The translations under genes and the position numbers were made by a program. Shown here in pieces: positions 3,475-62,366 of a stretch of DNA of 64,000 nt (within the stretch, counting starts at the first letter, position 1; each line of letters opens with the position of its first letter). This DNA is from Rhizophagus irregularis (lineage: Eukaryota > Glomeromycota > Glomeromycetes > Glomerales > Glomeraceae). The stretch lies in contig NC_089437.1 in NCBI RefSeq assembly GCF_026210795.1, positions 5,022,001 to 5,086,000 on the forward strand, given 5' to 3'. The notes under the pieces were generated by a model. The model saw only the letters and a program-made list of their open reading frames with translations. It had not been told where the DNA came from and made no database searches.

Positions 3475-4702
3475 TAGAACTCTGCAACCTGACTCAACAG
3501 ATCAGATAACCTGACAGATTGACCCAAAATATTCAGGTCAGGTCATCAAATTTATAACCTGACACAGGTCAGGTCAGTGCTAGTCATTACCTGACCCAAC
3601 TTGTTGACTTGACATATATTTGGATCAAATAAATTAAAAAACGCCAAAACTAATAGTTCTGGCATTTTTGTATATAAAATCAAAAGAAAAACTGCCAGAA
3701 CTAATGATTCTGACGTTTTTACATGTAAAATTGAAAAAAAATGCCAAAACTAATAGTTTCAGCATTTTTACATGTAAAATCAGAAAGAAAAATGCCAGAA
3801 CTAGAGCACCAAACGGTTTCAGTTTGAACTGAAAACCAATCTGAAACTGACCAAAAATTCGGTTCAGTTCTCAGTTCAGTTTTGAAACCGGAATCGTTCA
3901 GTTTGGTTTTCATTCAGTTTCAGTTCCAACCCGAACCGGAAAAAAACCGCACTGAACCGACCTGTTCAGAGCTTTAACCAGAACTAATGATTTTGGCATT
4001 TTACATGTAAAATTGAAAAAAATGCCAGAACTATCAGTTTCAGCAGTTTTACATGTAAAATCAAAAAGAAAATGCTGGAACTAATGATTCTGGTGTTTTT
4101 ACATGTAAAATTAAAAAAAAACACTAAAACTATCAGTTTCAGAAAAGAAAACTGCTAAAACTAATGATTCTGGCATTTTTATATGTAAAGTCAAAAAGAA
4201 AAATGCCAGAACTAATGATTCTAGCGTTTTTACATGTAAAATTGAAAAAAAATTCCAAAACTATCAGTTTCAGCATTTTTACATGTAAAATCAAAATGAA
4301 AAATGCCAGAACTAATGATTCTGGCATTTTTACATGTAAAATTGAAAAAAAATGCCAGAACTAATGGTTTCAACATTTTTATATATAAAATAAAAGTAAA
4401 ACGCCAGAATCTGATGTTTTTTTAATAAAAATTAAAAAGAAATCATTTTTTTAATTAAAAACGTTGAGCCTGACATTTTTTGTATAATTAATAAAAAAAA
4501 TGTTACAAAACGTTTTTTTTACTTGAAATATTCAGTTTAATAATAAAACTTCAGGTAACTTGAATTACCTGAAGTGACTTGAATACTTTCGGGTTAAATG
4601 GATTAGGTCAGGTCAGACTAATTTACCTGATCCGATCTGACCGTAAAAAAATTTTCAGTTCAGATTAACCAGGTGACCTGACCTGACCCGTGCAGAGCTC
4701 TA
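3475..4702. mobile_element. Non-autonomous hAT element with internal hairpin array, copy 1
   Basis: Ends are TAGAACTCTGCAACC (left) and, on the minus strand, TAGAGCTCTGCACGG (right). The exact 8-bp duplication ATTACCAC flanks it at 3467-3474 and 4703-4710, as expected for hAT. Subterminal regions consist of GGTCAGGTCA/ACCTGA words. The interior (3630-4440) is a tandem series of two-palindrome units: ATGCCAGAACTAATGATTCTG-type hairpins and TTTTACATGTAAAA, about 60 bp per unit. ORFs inside are by-products of the repeats. A second copy in opposite orientation lies at 61213-62366. Confidence 0.9.
3802..3976. mobile_element. Nested 175-bp hAT-type MITE
   Basis: Inserted in the hairpin array of the larger element. 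Left end TAGAGCACCAAACGG, right end (minus strand) TAAAGCTCTGAACAGG. Flanks are GCCAGAAC (3794-3801) and ACCAGAAC (3977-3984), an 8-bp target duplication with one mismatch. The interior is built from CAGTTTCAGTTTGAACTGAA-type self-complementary words. The insertion order is therefore ATPase gene, then the 3475-4702 element, then this one. Confidence 0.8.
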
Positions 4703-6145: not shown

Positions 6146-9100
6146 TTACATTGAAGATGTATGACCATGTGATGAACTTATGGATCCTCGAGTTCTTTGA
6201 ATTAAATTTTCTAGCTGAAAAGAACCATTATTCCCTTCAGAAAGTATCGATTCATTATCATCACATGATCCTGTATCATCATCGTCACTTGAAGAGGCTG
6301 AACTCGTCTGAAAATCTGCAAACTCATCATTTTCTCTTTGTAGCAAATAATTACTATTATATGGTGGTATATTATTATTGGAATTAGAATTTGTTGTAAA
6401 AGGTTCAACATAATTTTTAAATGAGCTATTTGATGGGGATTTTGATAAACTTCTTTGTAATATTGCATCAGCCCTAGATTCATATTCATTCGGACTTGGT
6501 TCAACAAAATCTCCCCCGAAATCTTGTTCGTTAATACTTGGTATCTGGTATGTTGAAGCTAGTGTCATTGCTCTTCCACTTACACTACCGACGCTTCCAC
6601 TGCTACTAACTACATCGTCACCAGGAAGAAAGTATTCATTCAAATCTTGCAATTTGGATGCAATCTCGCGGAATCTATATTCTCTTGTAGGAACTTCTTC
6701 AACATAACTTTGTGTTGTATCTTCGGTAAAGAATTGGTAATCCTGATCTTGTGGTGCTACCTTACACGTATAACATACTGCATGTACATTCTCTCTTGTG
6801 GCTTCCATATCCGTAGTTCTATCAGGTATCGCCCATCCTGAATCATCGGGTTCACCAAAAAGTGTTGCCGTTCCTTCTACATTATTTCTTTTTCGTGTTG
6901 CAATACTCATTCTGAGTATTTGTTTATCTTTTGGTCCTCCAGATATTGATATGGTTTCATCAAGTACTTCCAAAGCGTCTTGAGAATATTGAGTTTGTAA
7001 GAGTCGAAGTAATGGTAATATTAATTCTGATCCAATATTAACAAATTCCTCCCTTTTCGTATTAATATGAGGCAATAACATCTTAATAATGATCATAGTC
7101 TTTAATTTGTAATAAGGTAATCTATTTGATAATAAGCTCATAAGGAATAATAATGTTTCCACTTCATAATCTGGAAAATAGTTATCTTTAATACACAATA
7201 TTATTTGCTTTAAAAAATCATCTTTAGTGCGAAACTTTCCTTTAATGAAAGATATTAATACTCTATTAAGATTTTGCCGATCTTGATGTTCTGCAAATTC
7301 TGACAAATAAGTTGCCCATTGTTTACATTCTTCTCGTATCGATTCGTCCTCTAACGAATGAACAAATCTCGGAAGATTTGCAAGAATAAGGTACAAAAGT
7401 CTTCCGTTACTTGGATCGATTAATTGGTCATCTCTTATAAATAGTAATTTCTTTAGCATTTCAAATGTTTGATGACATGCTGTAGCAGAACGAACTCCTT
7501 TCATTAATAATGGTTGTATTCCATAAAATTGGCCGCGCCATTTATGTTTTGGGAAGAAATTCCATACCAAAGCCTGATTTTCCTCATCTGATAAATCGAA
7601 TTTATCTATAATTTTATCTAATATAGATAAAGTTTCCAAATATTCAGGCTCATTAATTGTTTGAAGACATGCAATAATGGCCCATAGTAACTGAGGAAAT
7701 ATTTCTTTTGTACCAAGTTCAAGCCAATCAACGACATAACTTAATGTGATTAATATTTCCAGTGCGAATCCTTGAAAATCATCTGAATTATCCGATATAG
7801 TGTTTGATAAACGAGCAAGTACATCTGCAAGCATACGTTCGTTAAATACTGGATTCAGAGAGCGGAATATTTGAAATGAACGACAGGCTATATGACGGAC
7901 TGGACAAGAAGTTGCCCATTGTAACGCCATTTCACCCCACATTTGTTTAAGGTCTTCTTTGTTACTTTCACCATAAACAACGATACCGAATATGTTAACA
8001 ACATCTTTAGACAACTTTTCCAAATCTGCAAGACTACTAATTGTTCGATTATGATAAGTTATATCTTCATATTCCCACAATCGTGAACCTTCTTTAGCTT
8101 TTAATTCTGCTATTAAAGAGCGTGCAACTTTAACTACTTCAGGATAAACACATTTACTAAGTATAACGGAATGAATCAGATTCACTAATAACGATCGAGT
8201 TTCCTCACTAATGAGTGGATTAACTGCATCCAATTGTACAAATAAAACGTGGAGTAATCTTGGAAGATGCAACTCGAAATCTGGTTTAGCCTCAATTGCC
8301 ATATCAACCATATATAACATCGCTAACTGTCCTGATGAAAAAATGGGTCGCTTATTATGTTGAGGCATTGCATCCTCAATCTTGGAAAGATACATGCCGC
8401 CTGTCTTTAATTCTTCAATATCAATATCCTTTTTTGGTTCTTTAGGTTGAGGAGTCATGGATTTTGGTGTTATTTCGTTGATTAGAGCATCAATTACAGC
8501 AGAGCATGTAGCAGTACGTCCCAAATAAATGAACACTCTTTTTGCATGCAAAACAAAGATAGGATTTCTTTTTTCCAATCCAACGTCAATTAAATATTTG
8601 ACAATTGCACGAACATTCCGACCATATTCTCCAATGACTAACTGTTGCCAAAGTTTTTCAATTTCCTTGATGAACAAATCTCCGTATTTGACAGTAATGA
8701 AAAATAGATTTGATATCATTACAAAGGTGGTGGTTTGCAATTCACAATCATCGAATAGAAGCAATTCAACATTACGAACCCAAGGTACTAAATAACAAAG
8801 TACATCTTTTTTTATTTTGTCCGGAACAAATTCAAAACGGTTTGTAATCTCTGAAAGCATATAATGAGTTTCCTCATATAAATCTTTAAAACTTTTCGGT
8901 TTTTGATCATTAATTAAATGGTTCCGCTTTTCTTCATCTCTTTTACGGACTTTTTCTGCAAGACGTGCCGATAATTGAATTTGAGTTTGTTTGTAAATTG
9001 AGGATACTTGACTTGATATACCAACTTCAAATTCATCAGAGCAAGTCTCGCCAAAAAATCTTTTCTCTATAATCTTTAATAATCTAAGAGCAGTCTGACG

Positions 9101-17931: not shown

Positions 17932-18810
17932 GTATATTCATTTGCTTGTTTCCCATTTCGTTTTATTTATTCTAATGCTTCTTTTCTTTTATTTTAGGTT
18001 CTTCGGCTCTCCCGGGTTTGCGATCAGGTATTTTCCTTTTTTTTCGTTTGTTTATTTCTTTGTTGTTCCATTTCGTTTTAATAATGCTTTCTTTTCTTTC
18101 TTTTTAGGTTCTTCGGCTCTCTCGAGTTTGTGATCAAGGTATTTTCCTTTTTTTTTCATTTGTTTGTTTCTTCGTTGCTCCATTTCGTTTTAATAATGCT
18201 TTCTTTTCTTTCTTTTTAGGTTCTTCGGCTCTCTCGGATTTGTGATCAAAGTATTTTCTTTTTTTCATTTGTTTGTTTCTTCGTTGCTCTATTTTGTTTT
18301 ACTTTGTTCCTAAACTAATGCTTTAACTTTTTTTTCTTTTTAGGTTCTTCGGCTCTTTTCGGTTCTGCAGTCAAGGTATTTTCATTTTTTTCGTTTGTTT
18401 GTTTCTTCGTTTCTCCATTTCATTTTAATTTTGTTTCTAATGCTTTCTTTTCTTTTTTAGGTTCTTCGGCTCTCTCGGGTTTGCGATCAAAGTATTTTCT
18501 TTTTTTTTATTTGTTTGTTTCTTCGTTGCTCTATTTTGTTTACTTTTGTTCCTAAACTAATGCTTTCTTTTTTTTCTTTTTAGGTTCTTCGGCTCTTTTC
18601 GATTCTGCAGTCAAAGTATTTATTTCATTTTTTTGTTTCTTCGTTCCTCCATTTCGGTTTAATTTTGTTTCTAATGCTTTCTTTTCTTTCTTTTTAGGTT
18701 CTTCGGCTCTTTTGATTCTGCAGTCAAGGTATTTTCATTTTTTTTTCGTTTATTTGTTCCATTTTATTTATTTTGTCTCTGCTTTATATTTTAGGTTCTT
18801 CATATCTAAT
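17932..18810 (+). repeat. Tandem array of 30-32-nt exon-like units, + strand
   Basis: Eight units with a period of about 90-120 bp. Each has TTTCTTTCTTTTTAG, then a block such as GTTCTTCGGCTCTCTCGG ending GATCAAG or GTCAAG, then GTATTTTC. Blocks: 17998-18027, 18108-18138, 18220-18250, 18344-18375, 18461-18491, 18584-18615, 18698-18728 and an incomplete one from 18795. A preceding donor-like end is at 17931. Every unit thus shows an acceptor-like and a donor-like site, and most carry CTAATG or AATAATG about 20-25 bp before the AG, a possible branch site. Confidence 0.8.
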
Positions 18811-22679: not shown

Positions 22680-23425
22680 TACTTGATAATACCCATCAGA
22701 GCCGAAGAACCTAAAAAGAAAAAAAAAGAAAGCATTAGAAACAAAATGGAGCAACGAAGAAACAAACAAACGAAAAATAATAAAAATACCTTCGACCGCA
22801 GAACTGAGAGAGAAGAACCTAAAAAGAAAGAAAATAAAGCATTAGAGACATAATTAAAACGAAATAGAGAAACAAACGAAAAAATGAAAATACCTTGACT
22901 GAACCAAAAAAGAGTCGAAGAACCTTAAAAGAAAAAAAAAGAAAGCATTAGAAATAAAATTAAAACGAAATAGAGAAATGAAGAACGAAAAAAAATGAAA
23001 ATACCTTAACTGCAGAACCGAAAAGAGCCGAAGAACCCTAAAACGAAAAAAAGAAAGCATTAGTTTAGGAACAAAAGTAAACAAATAGAGCAACAAAGAA
23101 ACAAACAAATAAAAAAAAGAAAATACTTTGATCGCAAACCCGAGAAATCAAGAACCTAAAAAGAAAGAAAAGAAAGCATTATTAGAAACAAAATTAAAAC
23201 GAAAGGGAGAAACGAAGAAATAAAACAACCGAAAAAAAAATGAAAATACCTTGACCAATGACCACAGAACCGAAAAGAGCCGGAGAACCTGAAAAGAAAA
23301 AAAAGAAAGCATTAGAAACGAAATGGAGCAACAAAGAAACAAATAAACGAAAAATAATGAAAATACCTTGACCGCAGAACCAAGAAAGCCGAAGAACCTA
23401 AAAAGAAAGAAAAGAAAGCATTAGA
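22680..23425 (-). repeat. Tandem array of exon-like units, - strand
   Basis: About seven units, the inverted counterpart of the left array. On the minus strand each reads TTTCTTTTTAG, GTTCTTCGGCT..., GTCAAG, GTATTTTC. The clearest block is 23367-23397 (31 nt). Others lie near 23245-23290, 23122-23157, 23000-23036, 22887-22925, 22783-22819 and 22682-22709; some have lost the AG or GT. Thus both ends of the element read inward through the same units. Confidence 0.75.
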
Positions 23426-23943
23426 ATATATTTTTTTTATTCAGATTTTAAAATAAAGATGCGGTTACCAGTATTTATTCTAAAACTGTGTATAAATAAA
23501 TAACTCATCAAATGATCAGATATAAAAACTGGATTTCGTCTTGTAATAAACTGGTTTTTGTCTTGTGATCCGAATATTTGGAATTTACGTCAGAAATCAC
23601 AAAATCGCATTTATCTCAAAATGTATAAAATGTCGATTTGGTCCCTTTTCCCAGCACTCACCCCATATTACTCTGGTACTATGGATAACACTATCATATG
23701 GTTAAAACCAATCAAGATTCAACATTAAACCAAGATTAGAATCAGCCACTTCAGATCAAAAAAATTTTGATGAATTTTTATTGCTTGTTTCTTTAAATTT
23801 TTTCAGACCTGACCATCATAAATAGGGATGTCAAAAGTTCAGTTATAACCTAAACCGATCATAACAGGACCCCAAACAATACTAATACAACTCACATTTG
23901 AGGATATAATTTATTCTCTGGAAGGAATGGTCATCCTAAGAAG

Positions 23944-29100: not shown

Positions 29101-29860
29101 AAAATGTAATCGGGAAAGGATTGGACAAAAAGCAAACTAGTTCATATTTTGAAAAATTTGCAGTAATATTATTGAGAAAATAAAAACCCTAGCAATGGAT
29201 AAAAGGTATTAAAGTCCATCCAACGAGGCAGAGAGAAGTGTAGAATCATTCATGTAGGTAAGTTGTATAATCGGAACTATAGGGTCCATTTGTTTATTAT
29301 TATTAAGGGCAAGTATATCCTTAGATATATTAGAGGATCAAAGGTAAGGAGAAATGGTAGAATCTGATAATTCTGTAAGCAATAGATCAAAATATATGGT
29401 CCATAAAAGTGGAGAAATAACTTCTCTTTGATCAATTTTTATGAGAACATTATATGGCGAGGTTAAGCCATATGGCGTAAAAATGCGATTTTTCCTATTG
29501 GTAAATAAACTAATGATAAAATTAGATAAATTTTCAGAAAACCGTAAATGGTTAAAAGCTAATCGCAGCATTCGTAAATCAATAGAATCGAATGCCTTGG
29601 AAATATCTTGACTTAAAATCCATAATTCTTGCATGAAATGAGAAAGTTTATGACTTTTAATAATACCATCTAAGACATTAATTGGAGTGTTAACTGAGGA
29701 ACCAGGTAATCCAGCAAAATTATTGCCTTAAAGTACATGATACGAGAATAAAATATTGGAAAGTCTATTATTCACGACTTTGACCAGTAATTTCTGAGCA
29801 GTTTTCAAAAGAATAACACTAGTTGAAAAAGGAATATTTGGTCTTAGTAAAATTCGGCCT
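26150..29860 (-). pseudogene. 5'-truncated, decayed LINE retrotransposon
   Basis: The minus strand reads through reverse-transcriptase blocks. At 29640-29860 is a segment ending NNRLSNILFSYHVL and a G-L-P-G. At 29338-29634 is the motif A block SQDISKAFDSIDLRM and a motif B block with ISPLLWTIYFD. At 29240-29270 motif C reads QLTYMNDSTLLSAS, where the usual first Asp of Y-x-D-D is Asn. Further down, 27212-27481 has a V-F-T-D context reminiscent of a C-terminal RNase H domain. Many frameshifts and stops interrupt it. LINEs copy themselves by target-primed reverse transcription; this one is dead. Its 5' end stops near 29860 next to the second DDE element. Confidence 0.7.
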
Positions 29861-30130
29861 ATATTCGACTAAAATTAAAAATTTGACCTTAATTAGCAAT
29901 GATTTACGATTAAACATTAGTTGAATAACCAACCATGCTGGTTGAATAGCCACATCACACGTTACACATATTAAAAGTTTAAAAAAGAATCTTATGCATT
30001 CTTTTTTAAACTTTTATTATTTCTTTTCCTCATCCTTTGGCTCTATAGGCGTGGAAAAAAACAAAAAAAAATTATTTTATTTTTTTTTTTAAAATTTTAA
30101 TGTGGCTCTTTCCCTTTTCGTAGTAATTCT
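29861..30130. other. Spacer or leader before the mini-exon array
   Basis: Contains a GGTTGAATAACCAACC-like palindrome (29929-29955) and an imperfect inverted repeat AGTTTAAAAAAGAATC/GATTCTTTTTTAAACT-type at 29969-30016. It could be the left end of the second element, but I found no matching inverted repeat on the far side. Confidence 0.35.
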
Positions 30131-32405
30131 ATGGGAATGCCAGTCAAAACCACGTACCGGACTTTGGATAATAAGGTAAATGGGAAGGGGAAGTCTTTTT
30201 TTTTACTTTAGAACCATTTTTTTTTACTTTAGAAACATTTTAACATTTCTTTTTTTTCTTTTTCTTGCAGGTATTGCCAGATGAAATTAATGAATTTCAT
30301 GATAATAAAAAAACTAAGATTCGTAAGTAGAATCTTAGTAGTTTTTTTAATATTATGGAACGGTTACTAACCATTTTTGTTTTTTTTATAGGTTTCAGGA
30401 AAACGAAGGGAAAGGGTAAGATGAAGGGAAAAAGGTAAAATGAAAGGGAAAAGGTAAAATGAAGGGGAAAGAGAAAATGAAAGGAAAGGGTAAAATAAAA
30501 GGAAAAGGGAAAACGAAGGGAAAGAGAAAATGAAAGGAAAGGGTAAAACAAAAGAGAAAAATGAAAGTGAATGGGAACGGAAAAAGAAGTACTTTTTTAA
30601 GATTCGTATTATATTACGAATCTTAAATTTTTTTTTTCTTTTTTATTATTATAGAACGGTTTACTAACCGTTTCTTTCTTTTTCTTATAGGTTCGGGTGG
30701 ATTTCCGACGAATAGAAAACCAAGATTCGTAAGTAAGTACAAATCTTAGTTTGATTTTTTTTCTTTTTTTTTAAAATATTATGAACGGTTACTAATAACC
30801 GTTCTTTTCTATTTTTTAAGTTTCGGGTGGGCTTTTGAAGAAGGAAAACCAAGAAATTAAGATTCATAAGTAAATACGAATCTTGGTTTAATTTTTTTTT
30901 TTAAAAAAAAATATTACGAACGGTTACTAATAACCATTTTTTTCTATTTTTTAGGTTTCAGATGGGCTTCCGATCTTTGGAAAAGTGGAACCAAGATTCA
31001 TAAGTAAATACGAATCTTGGTTTAATTTTTTTTTTAAAAAAAAAAAATATTACGAACAGTTACTAATAACCATTCTTTTCTATTTTTTAGGTTCTGGATA
31101 GGCTTCTGAAGTATAGAAAAATCAAGTTTCATATGCACGAAACTTGGTTTATTTTTTTTATTTTTTAATTTAATATGAATAGTTACTAACCGTTCTTTTT
31201 TTACTTTTTTTTTAGATTCAGCTGTTCGGGTGGGCTTCCGAAGTATAGAAACTTCAAAGATTCGTAAGTATGAATTCTTTGGAGTTTTTTTTTTATATTT
31301 TTAACATAAACGGTTAATACTAACTGTTCTTTTTTATTTTTTTTTAGGCTTGACTCTCAGGTGACTTCTGAAGAATGGAAAAAACCAAGTTTCATAAGTT
31401 CAAAATTTGGTTATTTTTTTTTGTTTATTTTTTTTATTTTTAATATTATGAACGGTTATTAATAACCGTTCTTTTTCTTTTTTTGGGATCAGATGTTCTA
31501 AAGCTGAAGAATGGGAAAATTCCAAGATTCGTAAAAATCTTGGATTTTTTTTTATTTTTTTTTAAAAAAATATTACGAATAGTTACTAATAACTGTTCTT
31601 TTCTATTTTTAGAATCTGGTGGATTTCCGAAGAAAGGAAAATCAAGAAACCAAGATTCGTAAGTAAATACGAATCTTGGTTTAATTTTTTTTGTTTTTTA
31701 TTTAATATATGAACGGTTCTAACTGTTCTTTTCTTTTTTTTAGGATCTGGCAGGCTTCTGAAGAACAGAAAACCAAAAAACCAAGATTCGTAAGTAAGTA
31801 CGAATCTTGGTTTTTTTTTTGTTTTTTTTAATATATGAATGGTTTACTAATAACCGTTCTTTTCTTTTTTTTAGTATCGGGTAGACTTCTGAAAAATGAA
31901 AACCCAAAGATTCGTAAGTATGAATCTTTGATTTTTTTTTATTTATTATTATTACGAATGGTTTACTAACCATTCTTTCTTTTTTTTATAGGATCAGGTG
32001 GGTTTCTGAAGAATGAAAACCCAAAAATAAAGATTCGTAAGTACAGATCTTTAATTTTTATTTATTTATTATTATTACAAATGGTTTACTAACCATTCTT
32101 TCTTTTTTTTATAGTTTAGGTGGGCTTCTGAAGAATGAAAACCCAAAGATTCGTAAGTACGAATCTTTATATATTTTTTTTTATTTTTTTTTATCATTTT
32201 GGAATGGTTTACTAACCGTTCCTTTCTTTTTTTATAGGTTCAGCAGGCTTCTGTGTGGAAAAACCAAGATTCGTAAGTACAAATCTTGGTTTAATTTTTT
32301 TAATTTTTTTTTAATATTAATAAATGGTTACTAATAACCGTTCTTTCTTTTTTTTAGGTTCGGTGGGCTTCTGACCTTTGGGAAAAAGGAACCAAGATTC
32401 ATAAG
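30131..32405 (+). repeat. Tandem array of about 16 mini-exon/intron units
   Basis: A short ORF starting at 30131 ends at a donor (AATAAG/GTAAAT, 30175). Then come units with poly-T and AG, an exon-like block, and GTAAGTA. Blocks: 30271-30322, 30392-30605, 30691-30728, 30821-30865, 30955-30999, 31091-31130, 31216-31263, 31348-31393, about 31487-31530, 31613-31658, 31744-31789, 31875-31913, 31992-32036, 32115-32152, 32238-32272 and 32358-32400. The donor lies in a palindrome (CCAAGATTCGTAAGTACGAA...) and the intron carries TACTAAC or TACTAAT inside AACGGTTTACTAACCGTT, 20-30 bp before the AG. Consensus block: GTTCAGGTGGGCTTCTGAAG... ending AAGATTC. Four blocks have ATAAGT instead of GTAAGT. Confidence 0.85.
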
Positions 32406-32562
32406 TATGACAATTAAATAAAATATATAAATATTTTTAAGTGACTGATCGACACTTAACAGGATAAAATGACCGGCAACCTATAATTAATTTTATGGGC
32501 TTTGTTATTAATAAAAAAACTTTTTTTGGAATCTTGCGTTCTTTATTATACAAACTTTCTCA

Positions 32563-34666
32563 ATGAGCAAAAAAAGACAGTATACAATAACCCTTTTGGC
32601 CAAGGGAATTATTTCAGAAGATTTGCATTACGGTATATATGCACGAAATTGGTGGGAATTATGTAAATTTGATAAAACTAACGCTAATTTGATACCTTAT
32701 CGATTATTTATGTCTGTTAATTGTTATCTTAACAATAAGAACTTTGCAATAACAGTTCTTAATAATGAACAAACACAAAATCCATGTTTCCGCTGTGTTT
32801 GTGATGATAAAGATTCTGGAGCTCAGCCATCAGCTTCTGTAGCAATTAATGAAACGTATAACCAAATTTTTGGTAATAAAACAAAATATTCAGGATTAGC
32901 TGTTATGGGGTTTGATAATGAATCAATTATTCATGAGTTAATAGCAGATGTTCAATTTATTCCAATATTTATTCATTTAGATAAAATATTAATTGTGGTC
33001 AGTAAAATTGGTATTTCATCTTGTGAAGAATATTATGGTGCTGGTCCAGGATATCTTTCTACACTTATAACGAAATATAATGGTAAACAATCACTTTTTA
33101 TACAATCTATACTAGAAGATGAATGTAGTTTGGACGTTTATTATGAAGGTATTAAATTATACCATAATAAGGATACTACGCCTAATAAAATTTGGGAGAC
33201 TATTGGCATTCTCAGAAAATATGATGGAGTGACTTTATTTGGAATCACTAATTCATACGTTCAACAAAAATTGGAAGAATTGAAAAAGAATAATAATATA
33301 ATTACTTGTATGAGTGATAATTGGGAAAATATTGATTTACTGAATCTTATATTTGAACAAAATATAAAAAAACGTTAAATTGCTAATACATTTTCAGATT
33401 GATCAAACTTATTTACAAACTGGTACAAACAAACTAATACAATAATTCAATTTCCTGCAATTTTATTTCAAATTTATCTGGAAAATTATCAATTTCAAGA
33501 AAAAGAATTAGGTGCATGGCGAGCAATGCTTCGTGCCTCTGGTTGTATTAATATCACCTCATTTTCAAAAAAATGGCATATAATTGAATTTTGGATAAAG
33601 GCACCAGATTCTTCACCTGATAGGGAAAATCTAGCGAAACTTTTTAAATCAGGAATGCTAGTAGTGATAGAAAAGAAATCTAACCCTGATAATGAAAATA
33701 AAACACTTTGGAAAAGTTTACAAAAAGCTTTAGAAAAAAATAAAAGAGGAGATGATGGAAAAGTTAGAATTCTTTCAATAATTGCCGAAAATTTTACATA
33801 TAAAAAACTCAAAGAAAAGTTTGGGGTAAAGCCAAAATCTATATTTATTGAATTTACTATAAAATAAATCTTAAAAAAACTGTTATTATTACATACAGGT
33901 AGGAAATGATACAATTAATTCCACACGAAAACATGCAAAACTTAATGGACCAGGAGCACCAAGCCTAATAAAACCAAGAAGAATTGTTAAACAAATGTCT
34001 GAAATTAAAGAAAAACAATTTCTAATATTTTTTCAGGATCGAAGTATAGTTGTACAAAGTTCTTACAAAGTGGATAAAAATGGATTGCCAATATTATATA
34101 TGCGTGATCAAAAAACTAAACTGTGGAAAAAATTTGAAGAAACTTTTCCTAATGGTATGAAAAAGACATCATTTATGGGCCGATTAGCAAACTGTAGTAA
34201 TATCAAATATCGAGATGATATGGGTGAACTTTGTCTCACCTGTAATGAGTATGGCTATACTTCATTTGAATCTTTAATAGCTATTGCACGCAATACATTT
34301 TCACAAAAAGATCAATTAGTAAGTAAATTCTATTTTGATAAATGAATTATTTTAGGTTGAAAAATATTATTTACCTTTTAATATATCCTCAGGATAATAT
34401 ATTGCGAAAAATTGATGCTTTAAAGCGCCATATGCGTTATGGTTATGAAAGAGAATTAGTGGTTGATGCTGATGGTACAACAAAACATAATCCCATTGTT
34501 TGCCATATGCCTTTGGAAAATGTTCTGAAAAACATAATTCATGGTGCTTAGAATGTGATAAGTTTTTTGAATTTTTTGAATTTATGCAATTACATGTAAT
34601 GGAAGATCAAGCCACTTCTTTAGAATAAATAAAAAAACAATTGCAGTATTTTTTAGCCCATACAAC
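32563..34666 (+). pseudogene. DDE-type transposon gene, N-terminal and middle part
   Basis: The first reading frame (32563-33375) gives 271 residues, start MSKKRQYTITLL, family of the N-domain unknown; it has FRCVCDD and a SCEEYYGAGPGYLS segment. The same frame continues past TAA (33376) and TGA (33400) into WYKQTNTIIQFPAIL and a lysine-rich domain to 33866. After an intron-like gap, 33901-34320 reads on with RKHAKLNGPGAPSL and MGRLANCSNIKYRDDMGEL; a GTAAGT donor at 34320 and a further exon (34396-34551) follow. The last stretch (CAATTGCAGTATTTTTTAGCC) is cut at 34666 by the hAT insertion and resumes at 36222. A transposase of the second large element; dead by stops and insertion. Confidence 0.65.
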
Positions 34667-36213
34667 TAAGGCTCCGATCAGTTTCAGTAATTACCGAACC
34701 GAACCGATCAGTTTCGGTATCGGAACAGTTTCGGTATTCTGATTTACTGAACCGAACCTTTCGGTAAATTTACTGATCGGTTTCGGTAACTTCGGTTTCG
34801 GTATCGGTTTTGCGATTTACCGAACCGATTTACTGAACTGATATTTTCGGTATCAGTTTCAGTAAATTTTACCGATCACTTTGGTAAATTTTACTGATCA
34901 CTTTGGTAAATTTTACTGATCATTTCGGTAAATTTACCGAACTGATTTGCCGAACGTTTTGTGACGTTGATAAAAAACGTCGCAAAACGTTTTTTTTGAC
35001 AATTTAATAAAAATGTTGCGAAACATTTTTATTAGTTAATTTATTTAAAAAAAAATGTTTCGCAACGTTTTTTTTGATAATTTAATAAAAACGTTGCGAA
35101 ACATTTTTATTAATTAATTTATTTTAAAAAAATGTTTCGCAACGTTTTTTTTGACAATTTAATAAAAACGTTGCGAAACGTTTTTATTTGTTAATTAATT
35201 TTAAAAAAATGTTTCGCAACGTTTTTCATAACTTTAATAGAAAACGTTGCGAAACGTTTTTTATTAGTTATTAATTTAAAAAAATGTTTCGCAATGTTTT
35301 TTTGATAATTTAATAAAAACGTTGCGAAACATTTTTATTAGTTAATTTATTTAAAAAAAAACGTTTGCAACATTTTTTTCAGTAAGCTTAATAGAAAATG
35401 TTGCGAAACATTTTTTATTAGTTAATTAATTAAAAAAAACGTTTCGCAACGTTTTTTTCAATAATTTAATAAAAGCGTTGTGAAAGCGTTTTATTTGTTA
35501 ATTTATTTTAAAAAAAATGTTTCTTTCAACGTTTTTTTCAACAACTTAATAGAAACGCGTTGAAACGTTTTTTATTAGTTAATTAATTTAAAAAAAAGCG
35601 TTTCGCTAACGTTTTTTTTGATAATTTAATAAAAATGTTGCAAAAGCGGTTTTATTTAAAAAAAAGCGTTTTGCAAGCGTTTTTTTCAATAACTTAATAA
35701 GCGTTGAAACGTTTTTTATTAGTTAATTAAAAAAATTAAAAAAAATGTTTCGCAACGTTTTTTTTCAATAATTTAATAAAAACGTTGCGAAACGGTTTTA
35801 TTAATTAATTTATTTTAAAAAAAAACATTTCGCAACATTTTTTTTTGATAATTTAATAAAAACGTTGCGAAACGTTTTTATTTGTTAATTTATTTTAAAA
35901 AAAAACATTTCGCAACGTTTTTTTCAATAAGCTTAATAGAAAATGTTGCGAAACGTTTTTTATTAAGAATTATTAATTTAATAAAAACGTTGCGAAACGT
36001 TTTTATTAGTTAATTTAATTAAAAAAAAACGTTTTCGCACATTTTTTTTAATAAAAAACGTTGCGAAAACGTTAAAAACTGAACCGATAATGAATCAGTA
36101 AATCGGTTCAGTTTTCAGTATTTACTGGTCGGTTTCGGTATTGATGATTACCGAAACCGATTGGTTTTGGTAATTAACAATGCCGATACCGATCAATTTG
36201 GTTCGGAGCCCTA
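34667..36213. mobile_element. Non-autonomous hAT element with CGTTGCGAAACG hairpin array
   Basis: Ends: left TAAGGCTCCGATCAG, right (minus strand) TAGGGCTCCGAACCAA. The exact 8-bp target duplication CATACAAC is at 34659-34666 and 36214-36221. Subterminal regions are ACCGAACCGATCAGTTTCGG-type self-complementary words; the interior (34960-36070) is an array of about 25 hairpins A5-ACGTTGCGAAACGT-T5 in both readings with TTAGTTAATTTATTT-type linkers. It lies inside an exon of the DDE gene. The interior hairpins here are better preserved (fewer CpG losses) than in the 1054-2465 array, suggesting a younger element. Confidence 0.92.
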
Positions 36214-37689
36214 CATACAACGCATAAAGTATACTTGAATGCTCAATTTAAAGCTACATTAACCACCCTTGATGAGCATGGTACGTTACTTGTTGCTGAT
36301 TATAAGATGAGATTTTGCCAAAATCTGCTCGGGAAACTAAAGCAGAATTTCTTGGCAAACGTAGATGGACTCTTCACACAATTCTAGTTTTTATAAAAAA
36401 AAATAATTGCAAAGAATTAGACGTAAAAGCTTATGATCACTGGTCAACTGATACCAAGCAAGATGCTTGGTTTACTGCCTCCTCTTTTGAAGCTGTTTTT
36501 GAAACAATAAAACATAAACCAAAATGGATTAGAATAATATCAGATAATGGGGTACATTACCATTCATCAGAACTTATGGCTATAGTTGCGCGTTGGAATG
36601 AATGGTATCAAATTGAAGTTCGTGATTGGCAATTCTCGAATAGGTGAAGTTAAAACAACAATTGATTCCCATCATGCTGCAGTAAGTATTATAATATATA
36701 TAGATATAGCAATAGATTTTATATTAAAATTACCATTTTCTTTTAGATTTTCCATTCAATCAAACGATATATTCAGATTGGATATGATATTCGTGATGGA
36801 GAGGATATAGTAGAAGCGGCTAAACATTTATCTGGTACATCACTAGCACATTTGAAACCAAATTGAAGTCAATTTGAATCTGAAAATGAAAATCCAAATA
36901 ATGTTAGCAAAAAGAACTAAATTCAAAACCAAGTGTCAAAACTATAAAAGGGATTTCAAATTTATTTTACTGGAAATGGCCAATTTCTGGCGAAATGATA
37001 GGACTACATGTAATGTGCCCGATCACTTTCACATTTTCTTTACCTAGCGGAATAATTTTGCCATCCCACTTGCAATTGCAAAACTTTGTACCAAACCAAT
37101 TGTTCGTCCCCATCCAAAGATTTCTGAACAAGGCTGAGCTTCGATCAACTTGGACAATTCCCCTGCCAGGTAATCAATTGAAATAGATGTATTTTTTTAT
37201 AAACATGTTTGACTAACATGTTCTATAGACATAAATTCAGTTAGAATACCAGAATTCACGGATAATAACAATCGCAATGATGAATTAGAAGATGCAAAGT
37301 AAAGAAACATGTAAGCTTAAACAGACATAATTCAAAAATTGAAAACTTACATTTTTTTGCATTGAATCAGTTCTGTTGATGTGAATTTTTAATTACCTAT
37401 GGGATGGACGTTGAAAAGCAAGTAAAAATTAGGAGGGAAAGGAAGGGGGAAAAGAATGAAAAAGAAGGTGAAGGAGTTGCTAAAGGGTTTTTTTTTGAAT
37501 GGAAATCTCAACCAAAAGGATAAAATGTCGGCAAAGGATATGTATAATGAGCTGATGACATTTGTTGAATCTGGTGAATTGGAAGCTGAAGATGTCCCTA
37601 AGATAGCAATGATACAAAACTGGATTTCAGCTTATGCACGAACATTCAAAGAGCAAGCTACAGAAAATATGGTAAACAACATACTATAG
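36214..37689 (+). pseudogene. DDE-type transposon gene, catalytic core and C-terminal part
   Basis: Resumes at the insertion point with a segment containing LTTLDEHGTLLVADYKM (candidate first catalytic Asp), then AYDHWSTDTKQDAWFTA, IRIISDNGVHYHSSELM (candidate second Asp) and, in another frame at 36647, GEVKTTIDSHHAA (candidate Glu), followed after an intron by RYIQIGYDI and HLSGTSLAHLKPN. This spacing fits an RNase H-like DDE fold. In-frame TGA at 36864. Further pieces: 36950-37190 (degenerate) and 37456-37689, where MSAKDMYNELM and PKIAMIQNWISAYARTFKEQ look like a C-terminal DNA-binding or adaptor domain. Dead copy with frameshifts. Confidence 0.6.
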
Positions 37690-40124
37690 CATAGTATAAT
37701 AAGCAGATCTAGTAAATATTGGTAATACTCAATATATTAAGATAAAAAAATAAAAAAAAAACGGCTAAATTAAAACTAAAAAAGGTTTAAAAACTAAATG
37801 AAGCTAACAAATTAACTCATTTTTTGGTCAAAATTGTTGAAAAATAAATTGTCTAAAATTCAAATTACTGGAAATTTATGGCCAGAATCTCACGTTCTTA
37901 CATAGTAAAGTTGAAGCTGTGGAACTTTGGCGACTTCAAATTTTGCAAGTGGCTTAGCTAGGATTGTCACTATCGACTACCATCTTTAAAATTTGTACGT
38001 CATATCACGTGATGAGTCGACGATCTGGTAAAAAAGGAGTATTAGCCATTTTTGGCAATAATCTGCGTAAATCGGTATTATTAAATTTCTCCGGTTGAGT
38101 GGCGATCTGTCCCTTAAACTTATATAAATTTATATGAAAATTTTATATAAAATATATAATGGCATATAAAATATCCATATAATATTTATTTAACTGTAAT
38201 TACGTATAAATTTATATTTAGATAATTATGAAATATTTATATAAAATTTATTTAACTATAAATTATACATAAATTTATATCTAAATAATTCTATATTTAT
38301 GCTAATTTTATACAAAATATTTATAATATTTCTACAATTATATAAAAAATAAATAAATAATTTATATGTATTACAGATTTATAAAAATTTATATAATAAA
38401 TTTACATTGAATATATATAAGATTATAGATACTACATAGGCTCTACAAAAAATACAACTCTCGATGATAGGAATTTTTATATAATAAATTGATTTTCTTT
38501 ACCATAATATTCTGCTTCATTACAAAGCATTTTAATATATTTTTTTATTTTTATTATGATAAAATTTAACTTTATGCATTTTTTACAAGCTTACAAAAAT
38601 AATTCTTTTTTTAGGGTTCTATGTAAAGTCAAAATGCCACTTCTAAACATTAAAAATCATCATAATAAAAGTTGTTCATCATAGAAAATTCTACATATTC
38701 TATTAAGCTTTAATATAGTTGCAATCAAATCCCAATGAGATCGTCAAAGTTAAATGCAAAATTTCTTGAAATTTTTTGTCATTTAAAAAATACAACTTTT
38801 GACCAATGGTCAATCTTCAATCTTATAATATGTAATTAATAAATAATGATTATTGTCACATAAATTATGATTTAAGCTCTTTGTGAAAAAAAATTTTATT
38901 AGAATAACTTCATTTTTCATAAAATTAGATGAGAACTGAATTTTCGGTAAAATTGCAGGCAAATTTGCCTGCAATGTTTTACCGTTTAAGGGATAGTATA
39001 AAAAATATTGATTTCTTGCTCTTAAAATTTATGATTTTAAATTTAATAAAAAAATTATTTACTAAAAGTTAATAAAACAATAAAAACAATAAAATATGCT
39101 TTACTGATAAAAAATGATAAGTTCGTTTGATTTTTACTTGGAAATTTATGTCTGCTTATTTATTAATAAAATAAAACGCGTAACCCATAAAATGAATATA
39201 ATAAATAACACCTAAATAAATATAAAAACGCGCGTCTCCTATGTCTCCTGATAGATATAATAAAGCAAATACAATAAATAACACCTAAATAATATAAAAA
39301 CGCGTATCTACTAATAAAATAAATATAATAAATAACACCTAAAAACGCGTCTCTCGGACTCTCTCCTAACTCTCCTAATAAATATAATAAAACAAGTATA
39401 ATAAATAACCTAATAAATATATAAACGCGCGTTGCCTAAAGAGATTTAAAAATGTATAATGCACTTAATATTGTTACAAAGTATAATTATAACTCCACAA
39501 ATATGTAAAATAATTCAATAAAATAATTATTTGAGTAATGCTTTACTTGTTAAGACTTTATTTAGCCTTCAAAGAATGACCAAAGTACCAAAATTACGCT
39601 CTAATCTTTGTATAAAGAAGATAAACAAAAAAAATAAAAAACAGTTAATATAGTAGTTAAAAATAAACCAACAATAAATTTTATACTAAATAATTATTTA
39701 AACTCGATATTTACAGCTTTTCATAAACTTTTTGTCTGACATTAAAAAAAGAAAGAGAAAAAAGAAGAAAGAGTTAAAATTACTGTTGTTAAACGTACGG
39801 TAAATAAATAAATAAATCAATGAGGCTGATGTGGCACAGGGGTAGAAAAGTGACGGTGATACTGGGGAAGATCAAATTTAATGGGCGATGCATCGCACAC
39901 ATCGCACAGCGGCACAGGTGATGAATAAATTTACTCATAAAAAAATATATTATAATTACCAACTCAAATTTATTATTAGTTAACTATTAGATATTTTATT
40001 CCAGAAAATTTATAAGTTATATATCTAAGATATCTGATAACTTTTACAGTATTCAATTTATATTATTATTTTTATGTTAAATCCTAAGTGTAAAGGAAAA
40101 AAAATAATAAAGAAAGTCATTATA
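37690..40124. other. Intergenic AT-rich DNA between transposon and SET1
   Basis: No ORF or RNA gene recognised. A weak inverted pair TGTCCCTTAAAC (38107-38118) and GTTTAAGGGATA (38984-38995) may bound a 0.9-kb MITE made of ATATAAATTTATA words, but no target duplication is clear. At 39170-39440 is an ACGCG(C)GT-containing tandem repeat (listed separately). A GC-richer patch at 39826-39930 contains GGGCGATGCATCGCAC and a GTAGAAAAGTGACGGTGATAC segment that recurs in inverse orientation near 56760-56785. Confidence 0.45.
39170..39440 (+). repeat. Tandem repeat carrying ACGCGT/ACGCGCGT sites
   Basis: Four to five copies, 60-100 bp apart, of AAAACGCGT or ACGCGCGT followed by CTCC and an ATATAATAAATAACACCTAA stretch. 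The CpG-rich sites stand out against the AT-rich surroundings. They lie about 0.7-0.95 kb beyond the 3' end of SET1, so a promoter role for SET1 is unlikely. Confidence 0.6.
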
Positions 40125-61212: not shown

Positions 61213-62366
61213 TAGAGTTCTGCATAGGTCAGGTCAGATTAGGTTACCTGGTTAACTTGAACCGAAATTTTTTTCAGGTCAGGTCGAGTCAAGTAAACTG
61301 CTCTAACCTGATCTGATCCATTTGACTCAAAAGTATTCGGGTCACTTCAGGTAACTCAAGTTACCTGAAGTTTTATTATTAAATATTATAAAAAAACATT
61401 TTGTAATGTTTTTTACTTTTTGTTTTTATATATAAAATGCCTAAACTATTTGTTTCAGCGTTTTTCTTTTGATTTTACATGTAAAAATGCCAAAACTGAT
61501 AGTTTCAGCATTTTTTTTTGATTTTACATGTAAAAGCGCTGGAATAATTAGTTCTGGCAGTTTTCTTTTTGATTTTATATGTAAAAACGCTAAAACTGAT
61601 AGTTTTAGCATTTTTTTCAATTTTATATGTAAAAGCACCAGAATAATTAGTTCTGGCAGTTTTTTTTTTGATTTTACATTAAAAACACTGGAATAATTAA
61701 TTCCAGCAGTTTTCTTTTTAATTTTACATATAAAAATGCTGAAACTGATAGTTTCGGCATTTTTTTTGATTATACATATAAAAGCACTAGAATAATTAGT
61801 TCTGGCAGTTTTTTTTGATTTTACATGTAAAAATGCTGAAACTGATAGTTTCGGCATTTTTTTTGATTCACATGTCAAAATAATTAGTTCTGGCATTTTT
61901 CTTTTTAATTTTACATGTAAAAATACTGAAACTGATAGTTTCAGCATTTTTTTTTCAATTGTACATGTAAAATGCCAGAATCATTAATTCTGGCATTTTT
62001 CTTTTTGATTTTACATATAAAAAATGCTGAAACTATCAGTTTTAGCATTTTTTTTTGACTTTACATGAAAAAATGCCAGAATCATTAGTTCTAGCATTTT
62101 TCTTTTTGATTTTACATGTAAAAAATGCTGAAACTATCAGTTTCAGCATTTTTTTTTGACTTTACATGTAAAAATGCCAGAATCATTATTAGTTTTAGCG
62201 TTTTTAATTTATTTGACCCAAATATATGTTGGATCAACAGGTTAGATCAGATACCGACCAACATTGATCTGACCCATATCAGGTCATGAATTTGATGACC
62301 TGACCTGAATATTTTAGATCAACCTGTCAGGTCACCCAATCTGTCAAGTCAGTTTGCGGAGCTCTA
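61213..62366. mobile_element. Non-autonomous hAT element with hairpin array, copy 2 (inverted)
   Basis: Same family as 3475-4702 but in reverse orientation: left TAGAGTTCTGCATAGG, then GGTTACCTGGTTAAC and TTCAGGTAACTCAAGTTACC; right (minus strand) TAGAGCTCCGCAAACTG. Flanks GTTTTAAT (61205-61212) and GTCTTGAT (62367-62374) match at 6 of 8, an aged target duplication. The interior (61435-62200) is a series of ATGCTGAAACTGATAGTTTC hairpins and TTTTACATGTAAAA palindromes. The long minus-strand ORF here is a repeat artefact. Confidence 0.85.

Follow-up and report, generated by a model that had tools for sequence, protein, structure and literature searches.

Organization of the locus

The window, a 64,000-nucleotide stretch of the Rhizophagus irregularis genome (C9:5022001-5086000), contains on its forward strand the left end of a transposon, two leader exons and a tandem array of mini-exon and intron units, followed by a separate transposable element, here called element X (Table 1). 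Throughout 30131-32405, the units have the same orientation and the same internal order, in which a branch-site palindrome is followed by a T-rich tract, an AG, a block of about 35-50 nt, a donor palindrome and the intron. Sixteen acceptor positions were found in the array. The AG is kept at 15 of these, with exon starts at 30271, 30392, 30691, 30821, 30955, 31091, 31216, 31348, 31613, 31744, 31875, 31992, 32115, 32238 and 32358, and the remaining acceptor, near 31481, is mutated to GGG. Five more strings matched the acceptor pattern and were left out as they are not unit acceptors. These counts, together with that of the branch palindromes, bear out the original prediction of about 16 units. 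Nine GTAAG donors follow TTC or TTT (30323, 30729, 31264, 31659, 31790, 31914, 32037, 32153 and 32273), and three donors read ATAAG (30866, 31000 and 32401). The window copy of the array is decayed.

A complete unit was defined as CTAAY, 8-34 nt, YAG, 28-62 nt and GTAAG. This pattern occurs eight times in the sense direction of the window array and not once in the antisense direction, and 500 dinucleotide shuffles of the array gave a mean of 0.05 and a maximum of 2. The remaining approximately 61 kb of the window contains one match on the forward strand and three on the reverse strand.

Both leader exons recur in public gene models, which begin with MGMPVETTHRTLDNK or similar; leader exon 1 is also used in the model mapped on another array locus (L010), as is the counterpart of leader exon 2. 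An 18-bp purine-rich short tandem repeat (AAAATGAAGGGAAAGGGT) lies at 30400-30548 within a leader exon, and other copies have similar stretches. Rfam microRNA matches at 31649-31811 (-) and 31760-31829 (+) are probably due to the palindromes. A known RNA family was rejected as the identity of the array, the Rfam matches being weak and all far below gathering scores. Elsewhere in the window, a further tandem array, with palindromic GTTGCGAAACGG units similar to those of the insertion in element X described below, is present at 1054-2461. Tandem units of about 50 bp, with CCAGAACTAATAGTTCTGG and TTTTACATGTAAAA palindromes, occupy 3637-4409 and 61411-62205 and seem too short to hold an exon and an intron.

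Table 1. Features of the window discussed in the text
Feature	Position	Strand	Remarks
Truncated non-autonomous CACTA copy	29817..32432	+	Left end and array; right end missing
Left terminal inverted repeat (CACTAGTTGAAAAAGGA) and subterminal region	29817..30030	+	1 mismatch to family repeat
Leader exon 1	30131..30175	+	Begins ATG (MGMPVKTTYRTLDNK), then GTAAATG
Leader exon 2	30271..30322	+	Ends AAGATTC, then donor GTAAGTA
Mini-exon/intron unit array	30323..32405	+	15 branch palindromes, T-rich tracts, acceptors, donor palindromes
Element X	32437..38117	+	TTAA at both ends; downstream ORFs 32515-34345; not part of array element
Second mini-exon/intron array, inward-facing pair	17973-18758	+	Unrelated to the CACTA array; no palindromes
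Second mini-exon/intron array, inward-facing pair	22698-23426	-	Unrelated to the CACTA array; no palindromes

The following transposon gene had been thought to have the array as its 5' part, and the array does directly precede the gene at 32515, both in the window and at locus L026, where element X interrupts an array and has array sequence on both sides. However, this gene lies in a TTAA-flanked element of its own, with the ends TTAAGTGACWGATCG.../...CGATCTGTCCCTTAA. Element X is matched through both ends at three other loci (L029, L030 and L031) and in its left part at L032; the flanks fetched for these four copies contained no array exon. It is therefore extremely improbable that the array is the 5' part of this gene, and the proposed link is abandoned here. 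A chimeric transcript of the array and the element X gene could be formed. The genome contains 136 matches to the first ORF of element X (32515-33375). Three element X ORFs were without a Pfam match, and phage records contained no DNA similar to the gene downstream of the array. Element X itself carries an insertion at 34667-36213, with an 8-bp duplication (CATACAAC) and palindromic tandem repeats of about 80 bp (AAAAACGTTTCGCAACGTTTTT type).

A CACTA family that carries the array

The array forms the body of a family of non-autonomous CACTA transposons, as indicated by terminal repeats, 3-bp duplications and the presence of the array in every complete copy examined; the window copy of this family is truncated. 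The genome searched comprises 146.7 Mb in 32 contigs. Twenty array loci were fetched, nine of which had both ends inside the fetched stretch. Nine further copies were picked by their ends alone, from 20 end pairs, to avoid selecting on the array. The resulting 18 complete copies correspond to 17 of the 20 end pairs plus locus L021; a 14.3-kb pair on C12 (differing flanks), a 27.5-kb pair on C14 and the pair at C5:4366494 (partly covered, L025) were left out.

All 18 complete copies, whether chosen by array or by ends, have the ends CACTAGT...ACTAGTG and identical 3-bp target duplications (for L043, which has two candidate pairs, the inner one was taken, the outer one being mismatched). The array is present in each of the nine copies chosen by ends alone, which span 1.4 to 4.1 kb, and its direction relative to the ends is constant across all 18. 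That the array belongs integrally to a mobile CACTA family of R. irregularis is thus practically certain. The number of branch palindromes per complete copy ranges from 4 to 19. The expectation that other genome copies would vary in unit number therefore holds, but the expectation that they would lie upstream of the same gene does not.

The window copy is similar to nine other copies from 29817 onward. Its left terminal repeat, searched at three or fewer mismatches, was also matched in 13 of 100 shuffles, but the match to other copies extends over about 200 bp. No right terminal repeat was found in the window at the same threshold.

Elements of the En/Spm type have CACTA ends, 3-bp duplications and short subterminal repeats, and the array family shares all three. 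In each of the eight copies checked, of the 18, TTCGRC repeats are clustered at both ends outside the array, with 3-6 in the left 260 bp, 2-8 in the right 420 bp and 0-2 between. Repeats of this kind are typical of transposase-binding sites, and a binding role for the array itself, which had been left as a possibility, is unlikely. Unlike En/Spm-type elements, the array family has no transposase gene, and its body is a long unidirectional array. None of the listed matches to Transposase_21 (PF02992), of 155 in total, falls inside the copies examined, and two lie just outside copies, in genes hit by the elements. The family is accordingly regarded as non-autonomous, with an assumed helper. At L013 4590-7288 and L018 1969-4578, array elements have inserted within, or next to, the Transposase_21 gene of another CACTA element.

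The 14.3-kb terminal-repeat pair on C12 encloses a partial array and hAT-like reading frames, with no recognised Transposase_21 ORF, and is flanked by TTA and CTA. From this pair, the notion that the array is the coding region of an autonomous transposon was rejected.

Splice signals and palindromes

The palindromes and splice motifs of the window array recur throughout the genome. The donor palindrome, at two or fewer mismatches, has 542 forward and 476 reverse matches, compared with two and one for the control, and the branch palindrome has 669 and 622, compared with none on either strand. The acceptor with exon start, at three or fewer mismatches, has 688 (359 and 329), compared with one on each strand. 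The complete-unit pattern was also counted in 29 further copies or array loci (20 in L009-L028 and nine in L035-L043); each has 3-17 sense occurrences and no antisense one. The array introns have GT-AG, branch site and pyrimidine tract in order and at host-like length, the branch motif lying mostly 25-32 nt upstream of the AG. About five candidate host introns found by script in window genes (65-79 nt, GTAAGT or GTATGT, CTAAT) have signals that those of the array resemble. The original prediction of complete introns of fungal type in tandem, separated by mini-exons, with the donor in one palindrome and the branch site in another and all within a transposon, is supported.

The stems are strong: in the CACTA arrays, 262 of 301 donors have stems of at least 7 bp, as do 270 of 380 branch sites. 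An array of DNA-level palindromes, bound by transposase or a regulator or extruded as cruciforms, would account for such stems, the splice-like motifs then being due to coincidence or descent. It would also fit the lack of an RNA wobble preference, as no excess of wobble-preserving changes was found in the hairpins (31 compared with 47 mismatching at branch sites, 22 compared with 29 at donors); selection on RNA hairpins via wobble pairs was rejected on this ground. However, when palindromes were searched by their arms alone in 21 arrays, 187 of 224 donor palindromes had GTAAG at the centre and 236 of 254 branch palindromes had CTAA, with centres that vary from 2 to 14 nt and yet keep the splice core. 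The same search in nine later copies gave 89 of 108 and 113 of 118, respectively. Loss of splice motifs from conserved palindromes, which would have spoken against introns, is therefore not what the copies display. The acceptor AG lies outside both palindromes and is nevertheless kept in all 26 unit-type consensuses, with a T tract of variable length. The terminal TTCGRC repeats are, moreover, the likelier binding sites. A role of the palindromes in DNA alone is improbable on this evidence and on that of the second array described below.

Unit types were obtained by clustering, for which 213 units were kept, those without a paired neighbour or of odd length being dropped, and 10 singleton clusters were left out. 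Donor arms paired better within their own unit type than when exchanged between types (0.85 compared with 0.75; 0 of 20,000 permutations; 23 of the 26 types, the other three having arms outside the arm pattern), a covariation that is suggestive rather than a clean test because unit types share ancestry. A double TG/CA change was seen in 45 of 372 branch palindromes, compared with 12.7 expected under independence, much of it inherited within unit types. The first intron of the L024 copy (6841-6913) differs in its palindromes (GAAGGTATATATATACCTTC; AACGTTTTACTAACGTT), which surround splice motifs of the same kind. The palindromes may tune splice-site use or promote the duplication of units.

The second, inward-facing pair of arrays in the window is found at four places in the genome. 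Its exons are mostly 29-32 nt (12 of 14), with the donor GTATTTTC or similar, and CTAAY is located 24-30 nt before the AG in 11 of 14 units. None of its 13 donors and none of its 13 branch sites has a stem of 7 bp or more. Thus, the splice grammar also occurs without palindromes, which was counted against a DNA-level palindrome array, and the existence of a second, unrelated array makes a broader class of intron-array elements possible.

Public annotations and the case for splicing

The peptide predicted from the spliced L013 array matched 215 predicted proteins at E<=1 (best 2.1e-90), and the best 120 of these 215 all carry R. irregularis names, from several annotation projects. Public RNA-seq-guided annotations contain orphan 'proteins' made of array mini-exons, several of them with multiple isoforms; the blocks proposed as exons are thus treated as such in public gene models. 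Each of four OCT59 models, tried on as many array loci, gave a match. The matches were clean at L018 (13 introns) and L010 (10 introns); at L019 and L014 the models match across the array, but a permissive search added spurious tiny exons. A mismatched pairing of model and locus failed at 6 of 164 residues. Of the 13 donors in the L018 model, nine coincide with the GTAAG that follows the block and four with a site 4 nt downstream, a choice that looks frame-driven and was counted against splicing. Two GT donors 4 nt apart are seen in donor palindromes, for example at L018 3014 and 3934, and public models alternate between them, apparently keeping the frame.

The 2018 annotation, according to the available part of its description, was made by AUGUSTUS with RNA-seq intron hints and comprises 41,572 models and 43,675 isoforms, so that extra isoforms amount to about 5% genome-wide. 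Nine of the ten RIR_jg rows seen, from five of six loci, are isoform t2 or higher. For the 2023 annotation, the part of its description available names BRAKER run on Illumina reads and PASA run on Nanopore cDNA. Short reads mis-map among similar exons, and the lists of isoforms may be too long for that reason. In addition, gene predictors can join such sites without RNA by choosing those that keep a frame open, and this too was counted against. Judged from the annotations, spliced reads at array loci are likely. Together with the splice signals, the annotations make it probable that the array is transcribed and spliced. A search of the genome for spliced array copies found none (0 exon-exon sites), a further point on the opposing side.

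One 272-nt stretch of two units folds with far greater stability than its shuffles (z -7.8), and neighbouring donor palindromes pair together in this fold. Such pairing would probably mask the donors, which was likewise counted against splicing.

Coding potential

A coding gene for a repeat protein of variable length, such as a basic secreted or nuclear protein, would be in keeping with the ATG leader exons, the many public models and A/G-rich exons with few stops. The lengths of 244 automatically cut blocks (a few of them mis-cut), however, are 98, 66 and 80 in classes 0, 1 and 2 modulo 3, so that no fixed frame is kept and successive exons change frame. Peptides from all three frames occur in public models. 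Stop triplets in any frame amount to 1.9%, compared with 2.6% under a first-order Markov model and 6.0% under base composition, and 86 of 194 exons have no stop in any frame (blocks outside 28-60 nt were excluded from the count). The rarity of stops is mostly explained by composition. The exons encode no fixed protein, and a coding gene of this kind is unlikely. The earlier remark that most blocks are open when entered in one particular frame is correct insofar as stops are few, but it carries little weight with block lengths spread over the three classes and stops rare in every frame; conserved coding in an S-G-G-x-L-K-N frame finds no support in these lengths. With so few stops in any frame, and with alternative donors spaced 4 nt apart, many splice combinations stay open.

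SP7-like effectors of R. irregularis combine a signal peptide with a repeat domain, and a conserved intron precedes the first repeat, as set out in the available text of PMC11333574. Like the peptides of the array, they are hydrophilic repeat proteins of the same species. Unlike the array family, they are not described with transposon ends in that text.

Decay of present copies and the origin of the array

CpG decay at donors gave 17 CA (GT lost) and 11 TG, with 178 intact. The GT is not spared, which was counted against a splicing function, and selection on donors in present copies was rejected, as none was seen in this decay. The pattern in present copies fits neutral decay of dead copies and lends no support to selection.

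The preferred explanation, which as a whole is somewhat more probable than not, makes the array the main component of a non-autonomous CACTA family, with transcripts that are predicted to be spliced. Transcription would start from the left end and run through the array. The host spliceosome would remove the introns of about 75-95 nt and join the mini-exons in variable combinations. Left-end transcription followed by host splicing of this kind is considered likely, from the same annotations and signals. The number of units in a copy would rise by tandem duplication and fall by loss.

The array family belongs to a known kind of element, CACTA elements with spliced cargo, in a new form. Tgm-Express1 is a soybean CACTA element with captured gene fragments, and its internal exons are spliced in many combinations, according to the part of the report available (PMC1947982), as is predicted here for the array. 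Unlike the five unrelated host gene fragments described there for Tgm-Express1, the array consists of near-identical complete mini-exon and intron units with palindromes. In the open-licence PMC literature, no described transposon built of tandem introns was found.

CACTA elements with captured, alternatively spliced gene fragments, such as Tgm-Express1, speak for an alternative, in which the array is passive cargo of the Pack-CACTA type: a CACTA element would have captured a gene and multiplied one of its exon-intron units, which may be spliced, and neither the splicing nor the palindromes would be of use to the element. Such cargo would explain the decay of splice sites in present copies, in which no constraint is visible, and tandem units readily expand and contract, as the range of 4-19 illustrates. 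However, all nine end-chosen copies retain the array, donor-arm pairing covaries by unit type (among types related by descent) and the same grammar recurs in the array of an unrelated element in the window. Passive cargo is a reasonable possibility, though rather less than an even one.

Introners are pieces of mobile DNA with splice sites, each insertion of which becomes one intron. The array family differs from them in having 4-19 units per element and duplications that flank the whole element. In humans, the HUSH pathway silences intronless mobile elements. The likeness to HUSH, a human pathway, is one of principle only, namely that introns mark transcripts as tolerated or silenced. Stalled spliceosomes trigger RNAi in Cryptococcus; this was not used as evidence.

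If the predicted splicing serves the element, which is put forward tentatively, a putative reason for the array, offered with similar reserve, is that an intron-dense transcript is handled like host mRNA and is tolerated by silencing or is less harmful. Somewhat more doubtful is the reading that splicing itself has been selected, giving a putative transposon class built from tandem introns whose transcripts mimic host mRNA and escape recognition. Under this reading, which is as speculative in its further steps, the class would have arisen at least twice, in the palindromic CACTA family and in the inverted-array family, and the palindromes would set the number of units joined.

Implications

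The orphan 'proteins' of R. irregularis annotations that consist of array mini-exons are accounted for as transposon exons, a point of consequence for gene counts and effector searches in this species. If the arrays are spliced, they constitute a natural series of multi-intron minigenes, the copies of which differ in unit number, splice-site strength and hairpin stability within one genome, and public short and long reads exist for this genome. Such a series would show the effects of hairpins at the donor and the branch site, as well as how tandem introns multiply. It would also allow one to ask whether intron density protects fungal transposon transcripts from silencing.
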